The translations under genes were made by a program, and so were the position numbers. Positions 17,905-48,650 of a stretch of DNA of 64,000 bases are shown here, in pieces (within the stretch, counting starts at the first letter, position 1; each line of letters starts with the position of its first letter). The stretch covers positions 20,124,001 to 20,188,000 of the forward strand of contig OY754467.1 in NCBI GenBank assembly GCA_963575645.1, written 5' to 3'. The notes under the pieces are model-generated. The model saw only the letters and a program-made list of their open reading frames with translations. It was not told the origin of the DNA and ran no database searches. The DNA comes from Xanthostigma xanthostigma. Its lineage: Eukaryota > Arthropoda > Insecta > Raphidioptera > Raphidiidae.

Positions 17905-18400
17905 ACTATCGTCCGTAAACCGACTTTACAGACAACCAATTTTTTGTACCACAATTCACAATATAAGTTTATTTCTTGTTGATAATTTAAATTGCGTCAA
18001 TTTTAAAGTGATAATTATTATGGCTGTTGGCTTAAGCTAAATGGGGGACCTATCTAGGTTCAACCACACCACAATCCGCAGAGGTTTAATTCTTGCTAAT
18101 GCAGTCACATGGAGCACCGACCATATTATTAATGCGTCTTAAGAGTCTGCATGCGGTGGATTGTTGGAGAATATGGCGCAGTGGAAACACATCCTATATA
18201 ATGCGTTTCAGCTATTATTATAATAAGTAAATGTGAAGGCCTTTGTTGCGGCGTCTATAGGAACCCACCTATCTCTATAAAGTGTCAGTACACAGTCACA
18301 GACACAAGACGGCAGTCAAGCAGACCACACCTTGCCTTCGGGGAAGGTTTTGTTAGTGACGGAGGTATTATAATTATCTTCACCAACTATGCAAAGTGAC
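17905..18400. other. unassigned, moderately GC-rich stretch
   Basis: Contains stretches such as CACACCACAATCCGCAGAGG and GCCTTCGGGGAAGGT that stand out from the AT-rich background and may be repeat-derived, but no ends or partner copies were found. No coding frame. Confidence 0.35.
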
Positions 18401-18404
18401 TTAT

Positions 18405-18537
18405 GTCTAATTTTTAGTATAGTTCCGATTGAGATGAAACTTCAGGATTTGTTGACCTTGGTGGGACATGAAAAACTTCCAATGGATTTTTGGCGCAAAT
18501 TCCTCACAACATTTTTGTAGGGTAATAATAGATTATA
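18405..18537 (+). repeat. dispersed repeat, + copy of an inverted pair
   Basis: TTTTTAGTATAGTTCCGATT, GATGAAACTTCAGG and TTGTTGACCTTGGTGGGA are found inverted at 18868-19012. The two copies flank the hammerhead-like sequence at 18754-18797. The copies differ at several sites, so the pair is not recent. Confidence 0.65.
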
Positions 18538-18753
18538 CTCCTTCATCTCTTGCACATTAATATATAGAAAAAAAAGTCATGTTGAGAATGACATGACTTC
18601 CATACATATAACATCGAATTTTTACAATTTGGTTTTTTCCGCAACTTACTTTCATACCAATTTTTATAAAATATGACAGTTAAAATGTTCTCTACTCTGA
18701 TTCAAATTTTGTTATTTCTACTAAGATGATAATTCTTATTTTATAATTTCTAA

Positions 18754-18797
18754 TGGCCTGATGATGGCATTTATGTCGAAACATGTACATGTAGCCA
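18754..18797 (+). ncRNA. type I hammerhead ribozyme-like motif
   Basis: The sequence folds as a hammerhead. Stem I is UGGC (18754-18757) with GCCA (18794-18797). The core CUGAUGA is at 18758-18764. Stem II is GGCA/UGUC with a UUUA loop (18766-18777), with U18765 as one extra base. GAA lies at 18778-18780. Stem III is ACAU/AUGU with a GUAC loop (18781-18792), then A18793 at the cleavage position. All conserved core bases are present, including the A-U pair opening stem III. Short stem III and type I topology are known from Penelope-like elements and related retroelement ribozymes of animals. Activity is inferred, not shown; the extra base could weaken stem II. Confidence 0.7.
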
Positions 18798-18867
18798 AGA
18801 ATTTAGTTTATTTATATTAAATCTTGCCAAAGGAAGAAGGTTTTTTTTTATTTTATTTCTATATTTT

Positions 18868-19012
18868 TGTAGGGGTTTAAAGATTAAAGACTTCACCATT
18901 TTTAGTAATTTATTCGTAGTGATTTTGTTTGAAAGGTGGGGTGCTTCATCCCACCAAGGTCAACAAATGCCTGCAGTTTCATCCAAATCGGACGTGTCCC
19001 TTAATCGGAACT
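18868..19012 (-). repeat. dispersed repeat, inverted partner
   Basis: Reverse complement of the family at 18405-18537: TCCCACCAAGGTCAACAAAT, TGCAGTTTCATCC and AATCGGAACTTT. It extends further toward CCCCACCTTTC (complement of 18936-18946), so it is the longer copy. No coding content. Confidence 0.6.
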
Positions 19013-19144
19013 TTATCTTCAATTTTTTGTGTCCCTTGCAAACGAAACGCTTACTATATTTAAAACTAATTTTTGCACCGTAAGATAAAATCGATTCATG
19101 AGACTGAAGGTCTGCAATGCTCGTATACCGTCTACTATAAAAAT

Positions 19145-40800: not shown

Positions 40801-41215
40801 GTAGATTTCAACTACTTAAATAGACAGATCCAAAAATCTTTAAGGTGATGTTAGTTGAAATAGGCAGAAATATGTTTTCTACTTGAAAAGATACATTTCA
40901 TTTTTATTTTCTAGGCAACTTTGTACTGTAAATGTTTTTATTTTTTTTTAAAGAAAAGGTTGTTTCTAGTGCGTGATGACATATATTATGGCCAATGTGG
41001 CATTACGTTAAGAACGAGTGACAACGAGTTTTAACAGTCAAAGAGCCATAATATTATCACGCTCGAAACACATAGGTATATACTTAGTATTTTTTGCATA
41101 ATTAAAAACACATTTTTTAAAGTTTAATTTTGAGCAAGTTCACTTACAATTGTATTGTTTGATTTTCATACATTTACTATGAAAATGGTGGTACGACTAC
41201 TTTGCTTATTTCTTC
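37815..41215. other. long gene-free stretch
   Basis: About 3.4 kb of AT-rich DNA without defensible features. Short low-complexity AATTAAATTAA patches occur near 40255-40330. Confidence 0.45.
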
Positions 41216-48441: not shown

Positions 48442-48650
48442 AAAATTATCGACCAATTTTTTAGACAATATATTAACAAAAAATATAATTATTAATACAT
48501 TAACGTTTCAATCCGGATTTGGACCTTCTTCAGAACTGATCTAAAAAATATAAAAAATAATTAATATTTAATTTCTAATTCGCTTTATATAAATTGGTCG
48601 ATAATTTTATTTATTGAAGAGTTCTAATCAGACGTTAATCAAAGATTTGA
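48442..48650. mobile_element. Penelope-like terminal structure with inverted arms and degenerate hammerhead
   Basis: AAAATTATCGACCAATTT (48442-48459) and AAATTGGTCGATAATTTT (48591-48608) are 18-bp perfect inverted arms. Between them, on the minus strand, CTGAAGA is followed by AGGTCCAAATCCGGATT and GAAACGTTAATG. That is CUGANGA, a stem II with a bulge (A-U, G-U, UCC/GGA) and GAA, then ACGU/AUGU as a short stem III. Stem I does not pair well. Penelope-like elements are known to carry type I hammerheads in inverted terminal repeats, so this is the likely family. A shortened copy is at 27044-27120. Confidence 0.6.

Follow-up and report, generated by a model that had tools for sequence, protein, structure and literature searches.

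Positions 18523–18862 of the window, by which we mean the whole 64-kb stretch of DNA that was analysed, are very probably a solo Penelope pseudo-LTR bearing a minimal type I hammerhead whose catalytic activity is putative. The earlier note on this DNA had described a type I hammerhead at 18754–18797 with intact core bases, three stems and a cut site before 18794, and direct reading of the sequence bore out each of these points. The hammerhead motif is real. Its parts, assigned with the standard hammerhead numbering, are as follows.

18754 to 18797, plus strand: minimal type I hammerhead motif (direct sequence reading, descriptor and folding)
18754 to 18757, plus strand: 5' strand of stem I, UGGC, pairing with GCCA at 18794 to 18797 (sequence; 0.939 identity to the window, 42 rows)
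18758 to 18764, plus strand: core C3-A9, CUGAUGA (sequence; with GAA, 0.956 identical across copies)
18765, plus strand: extra nucleotide U between A9 and stem II (one extra base in 34/34 distinct motifs)
18766 to 18777, plus strand: stem II, GGCA-UUUA-UGUC (sequence and folding; 0.852 identity, below the flanks)
18778 to 18780, plus strand: core G12-A13-A14, GAA (sequence)
18781 to 18792, plus strand: stem III, the 12-nt palindrome ACAUGUACAUGU (folding; 0.810 identity across copies)
18793, plus strand: H17, an A, with predicted cleavage 18793/18794 (sequence and hammerhead numbering)

All fixed bases of the type I core C3-U4-G5-A6-N7-G8-A9 and G12-A13-A14 are present at 18758–18764 and 18778–18780, the A15.1-U16.1 pair is A18781-U18792, and H17 is A18793 and not G; with core, A-U pair, H17 and stems in place, the type I assignment holds. 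Stem I is an open stem of 4 bp with no loop I evident in the sequence, and stem II is read as GGCA (18766–18769) paired with UGUC (18774–18777) around the loop UUUA. Stem II does not directly abut A9 as in the textbook arrangement, since U18765 intervenes. This base, overlooked when the core was first described as a plain one, is the sole departure from the textbook core, and it is a departure of a known kind because an extra core nucleotide in a viroid hammerhead is reportedly the subject of De la Pena & Flores 2001, going by its title.

The bare core pattern by itself matched 13 places in the window, and hence the stems matter. Our descriptor comprised the core, 0 or 1 extra base, a stem II of at least 4 bp, a stem III opening with A-U and a stem I of at least 2 bp. 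Applied to both strands of the 64-kb window it matched two places, the motif at 18754 with a score of 14 and a minus-strand motif at 48533 with a score of 10. Among 1500 dinucleotide-shuffled versions of the window, 2 reached a score of 14, and among a further 3000, with a stem II of 3 bp allowed, 0 did; these figures are somewhat generous because the descriptor was designed with the motif already known. With the same reservation about a post hoc descriptor, they agree with the view that such a match is unlikely by chance. They also count against the explanation that an unrelated repeat happens to contain a hammerhead-like sequence and has multiplied it along with itself, which we regard as extremely unlikely.

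The silence of Rfam speaks for such a chance resemblance. At the gathering threshold the whole window gave 0 matches, and a sensitive scan of 18500–19100 returned three sub-threshold snoRNA matches and no hammerhead. A genome-wide search with Hammerhead_1 recovered loci L001 and L002, with the window absent among the 73 of 81,843 first-look candidates that were scored. The Rfam library does find canonical hammerheads in L001, yet it was equally silent on L033, L039, L040, L026 and L012, all of which have motifs of the window form; its silence therefore does not discriminate. The covariance test proposed in the earlier note thus gave the background-level result that was to tell against the motif, but the test is blind to the minimal form. 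Folding stability of the motif with its flanks was unexceptional (z 0.46; 133 of 200 shuffles fold equally well or better). The two canonical hammerheads in L001 lie face to face, at 1210–1256 on the minus strand and 1489–1562 on the plus strand, with about 230 bp between them, and score 35.7 bits with Hammerhead_1 and 36 bits with HH9. Downstream in this region, the sequence resembles, by eye, a Ulp1-type protease.

The motif belongs to a dispersed family. A query with 18500–18900 matched at least 86 pieces of the assembly, counting that of the window itself, and 29 other family loci were fetched (L004–L032; about 24 places by hand count, several head-to-head pairs having been taken twice). 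The copies examined are single or, often, head to head, and the 14-base pattern GGYCTGAWGATGRC occurred 40 times, compared with 6 times for its letters in reversed order. The number of copies is no proof in itself, because the copies share the motif by descent. Over 42 aligned rows, identity to the window was 0.956 for the core, 0.939 for stem I and 0.905 for H17, and 0.852 and 0.810 for stems II and III, which fall below the flanks. The better conservation of the core than of its surroundings argues against a chance resemblance; the motif as a whole, at 0.881 compared with 0.881 and 0.878 for the flanks, is no better conserved than they are, and this, with the lower values of stems II and III, is a point in favour of chance. 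Of 38 other copies, 28 retain an intact core and 10 have a broken one. The closest copy shares 97% identity with the window in the part of 18700–18868 that was compared, and the median identity is 89%.

The boundaries of the insertion can be read from its surroundings, which contain the following features.

18523 to 18862, plus strand: the whole insertion, a putative truncated Penelope-like pseudo-LTR copy (between the duplication copies; at least 86 pieces in the genome)
18511 to 18522, no strand: left copy of the 12-bp target-site duplication ATTTTTGTAGGG (exact match to 18863 to 18874)
18863 to 18874, no strand: right copy of the target-site duplication ATTTTTGTAGGG (exact match to 18511 to 18522)
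18523 to 18575, minus strand: family 3' tail in inverted orientation, located at the insertion's 5' end (83–98% to the tails of other copies)
18418 to 18510, plus strand: left part of the interrupted host repeat (49 genome-wide matches to 18390 to 18511; empty site in L081)
18875 to 19015, no strand: right-hand portion of the host repeat, with its inverted arm at 18949 to 19015 (repeat matches; empty site in L081)

The insertion is 340 bp long. An empty site was found in the one relative examined, L081, where two units of the host repeat cross the insertion point without an insert (77–78% identity). The host repeat is a high-copy one, and L081 holds neighbouring units of it. The two inverted copies of an unrelated repeat between which the hammerhead had been placed are the arms of this host repeat, into which the element jumped. 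Among tail-bearing units of the family, 10 of 21 have a flanking direct repeat with a score of at least 10, compared with 0 of 21 controls; the remaining 11 units have none, and one of the ten, L026, lies at the edge of the search range. An inverted pseudo-LTR layout is a PLE trait, and the features by which PLE insertions were judged, inverted or tandem pseudo-LTRs, a tail at one end and a target-site duplication, are found here.

The genome also contains Penelope-like elements (PLEs) with motifs of the same form. A genome search with GIY-YIG gave at least 37 matches, among the best 150 of 521 candidates scored. Of three proteins tested against Pfam, those of L040 and L041 comprise RVT_1 and GIY-YIG and that of L033 GIY-YIG; RT with GIY-YIG is the enzyme pair of canonical PLEs, according to excerpts of PMC11167929. 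In a second search, with the L040 endonuclease, there were at least 150 matches among the best 150 of 1015 candidates scored, and 24 loci were fetched. The descriptor, with a stem II of at least 3 bp, matched 4 of the 9 loci L033–L041 and 17 of the 24 loci L042–L065, all of them brought in by their endonuclease and some overlapping (L042 is L040's place). It gave no match in L034–L038, L051, L052, L053, L055, L058, L061 and L063, among which L051 and L061 have damaged-looking versions of the motif. At 16 of the 17 loci, by a hand-derived count, the motif lies on the endonuclease strand, 0.2–0.6 kb 3' of the matched piece; at L059 it lies solely on the opposite strand, on the 5' side of the endonuclease, while L044 has both and L062 has a second, upstream. 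The window motif has the same layout as these motifs beside GIY-YIG/RT ORFs. In L039 (G000:C4:23141801-23149800) three long Penelope-like ORFs stand within 8 kb in both orientations, with an identical hammerhead-like motif about 250 bases past each of the three.

Five PLE proteins searched against the window gave no match at E 0.01, and a weak one at 40975–40811 with E 0.18. Since this search found no RT and GIY-YIG ORF in the window copy, we filed the copy as a pseudo-LTR remnant and not as an element. The same proteins were searched at E 0.01 against the family's 44 fetched loci, a few of them (within L066–L079) with other motifs, and L017 alone has a piece of PLE ORF beside a family copy. 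There a decayed piece of ORF without endonuclease lies immediately 5' of window-family sequence in the same orientation, matching the L048 protein with E 1.7e-11 and the L040 protein with E 1.3e-6, in alignments whose first part runs, by eye, into sequence of other origin. A stop-free piece of 56 aa matched 20 other places at E 0.01 or less; its nine best matches have 45–56% identity and E 7.7e-6 to 2.3e-5, and 8 of the 9 are at listed endonuclease loci. The direct link of the window family to PLEs rests on this one copy. The joined ORF fragment and family pseudo-LTR, at 940–1720 of L017, sit inside another coding-looking sequence.

The DNA of the ORF part of L017 (query 1–225) had no other copy in the genome, and so an intact source element was not found. 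As a candidate source, L056 was rejected: its pseudo-LTR is 76% identical to that of the window over 55 bp, and a search with this pseudo-LTR does not list the window. PLE proteins searched against 14 further loci gave a single match, an unrelated one in L076, by the L033 endonuclease and next to a motif of non-fitting form. Together, the shared layout beside the PLE ORFs and the ORF fragment adjoining a family copy count heavily against a chance resemblance.

To see how constant the layout is, we collected the descriptor matches on both strands of all fetched loci and the window, except the controls L001–L002 and L080–L081, and obtained 34 distinct motifs, 21 from window-family loci and the window and 13 from PLE loci. 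These are not independent, because many are relatives. Exactly one extra base was present in 34/34, and a perfectly palindromic stem III in 26/34 (14/21 in the window family and 12/13 at PLE loci), neither feature being required by the descriptor. For comparison, 3000 shuffles yielded 118 descriptor matches, of which 61 carried a single extra base, 7 had a perfectly palindromic stem III and 3 combined the two. Ten representatives were hand-picked from the 34 motifs, two of them from the window; they include none of the 8 motifs with an imperfect palindrome, and our counts therefore rest on all 34. All ten have one extra base and a perfect palindrome of 4, 6, 8 or 12 nt, the window's palindrome being the one of 12 nt as against 4–8 nt in the other nine. 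Stems I and II of the ten are paired by differing base pairs (II-3, for example, is CG, AU, UA or GC). Multiple copies with covarying stems had been suggested as a check, and both copies and pair changes among the picked motifs were found, but the kept pairing is no independent evidence because the descriptor itself demands it. The motifs were compared by scripts and without a covariance model, since alignments misplaced stems of unequal length.

The second window motif, which runs on the minus strand from 48533 to about 48490, is likewise a Penelope-type hammerhead-like sequence, with CUGAAGA, one extra A and the palindrome ACGU. The repeat that holds it has 92 matched pieces genome-wide.

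The palindrome in stem III would form a 4-bp hairpin in the monomer and 12 bp in a dimer. For the 44-mer alone, the hammerhead fold has –5.4 kcal/mol and the predicted minimum –6.1 kcal/mol, so that the monomer fold with three independently pairing stems put forward in the earlier note is not the predicted minimum. In two-strand folding the predicted minimum is a double hammerhead of –27.2 kcal/mol, in which the 12-nt palindrome would let stem III pair between two copies. With two strands, the full double hammerhead came out as the minimum in 5 of the 34 motifs (the window letters, which also occur in L005, and L004, L017, L020 and L025) and in none of the 13 PLE-locus motifs, and these proportions support dimer action weakly. 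Dimer action through the 12-nt palindrome is plausible for the window copy, and folding does not predict it for the class in general (5/34; 0/13 PLE). Transcripts with two motifs would join by way of their palindromic stem III to give a double hammerhead, which may then cut after A18793 and so process the PLE RNA.

Primary studies of minimal type I hammerheads in PLEs are said to be those of Cervera & De la Pena 2014 and Lunse et al. 2017. Excerpts of PMC7761336 and PMC6155905 describe minimal type I hammerheads, without helix III or without loop contacts, as conserved in PLEs, located in pseudo-LTRs and also dispersed in non-coding DNA, and as possibly cleaving as dimers; their role in PLEs is called a mystery in PMC7761336. 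The window motif resembles those described there in its type I order, intact core, short helix III, lack of an evident loop I, location in a pseudo-LTR and self-complementary stem III that could pair between copies, and differs in that it lies in a solo copy without an ORF. PMC11167929 presents PAc (Poseidon of Anolis carolinensis), which has a pLTR with a hammerhead, a tail signature and, in the element type, RT and GIY-YIG. PAc keeps its ORF, whereas the window copy has none and its hammerhead is known here from sequence. Cleavage by the PAc hammerhead occurred solely when protein was supplied, and in vitro insertion seemed not to need this cleavage (PMC11167929). A palindromic stem/loop III that permits dimers, as in the window, is noted for hammerheads of Aedes and others in PMC3088659, whose main text lacks the word Penelope. 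Because minimal hammerheads in PLEs are already published (PMC7761336, PMC6155905 and PMC11167929, in the same excerpts), the window motif is not new in kind. Of the two readings in the earlier note, an uncatalogued ribozyme-bearing element gives way to a solo terminal remnant, and the duplication, tail, family and PLE motif layout are best fitted by a Penelope-like pseudo-LTR.

Metazoan non-LTR retrozymes, small non-autonomous elements with type I hammerheads and circular RNAs, are another conceivable source. The window insertion is similarly short (340 bp), non-coding as far as an ORF was sought, dispersed and hammerhead-bearing, and excerpts of PMC7229834 and PMC7761336 put known retrozymes at about 300 bp and suggest that PLEs mobilise them. 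Known retrozymes are, however, tandem repeats with canonical hammerheads in the same sources and give circular RNAs in PMC7229834. The examined copies instead stand singly or as head-to-head pairs, here with a tail in inverted orientation and a motif of the minimal type, and no head-to-tail tandem of about 300 bp with a canonical hammerhead was found among them; moreover, canonical hammerheads visible to Rfam exist elsewhere in this genome. We consider a retrozyme very unlikely.

The preferred reading, a pseudo-LTR remnant of a PLE, suggests that the window copy arose by target-primed reverse transcription, perhaps with the enzyme of another PLE. Alternatively, the family could be a non-autonomous derivative of PLEs with recent activity, still mobilised in trans, in which the longer palindrome would allow the ribozyme to function both as a monomer and as a dimer. 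The closest copy at 97% identity over the stretch compared within 18700–18868, the perfect 12-bp duplication, and the double hammerhead shared as predicted minimum by L004, L017, L020 and L025, all with a 12-nt stem III, are consistent with recent activity. Against it, the median identity of 89% and the 10 broken cores among 38 suggest that the copies are mostly old, and we find recent activity unlikely. Also rather unlikely is the idea of a non-autonomous, ORF-less Penelope derivative in which the stem III palindrome lengthened from 6 to 12 nt as a monomer/dimer switch and which spreads with enzymes supplied by other Penelope families of this genome. As for the copy in the window, it is probably a remnant that is inert or transcribed just by accident.

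Overall, the window copy is ordinary, one among many of a known kind. The genome, in turn, contains elements of several kinds that share a constant layout with an extra base in the core, and the palindromes of the ten picked motifs measure 4, 6, 8 or 12 nt. As the layout is constant and the palindrome lengths vary, the genome provides a natural series in which the importance of dimer cleavage could be examined.
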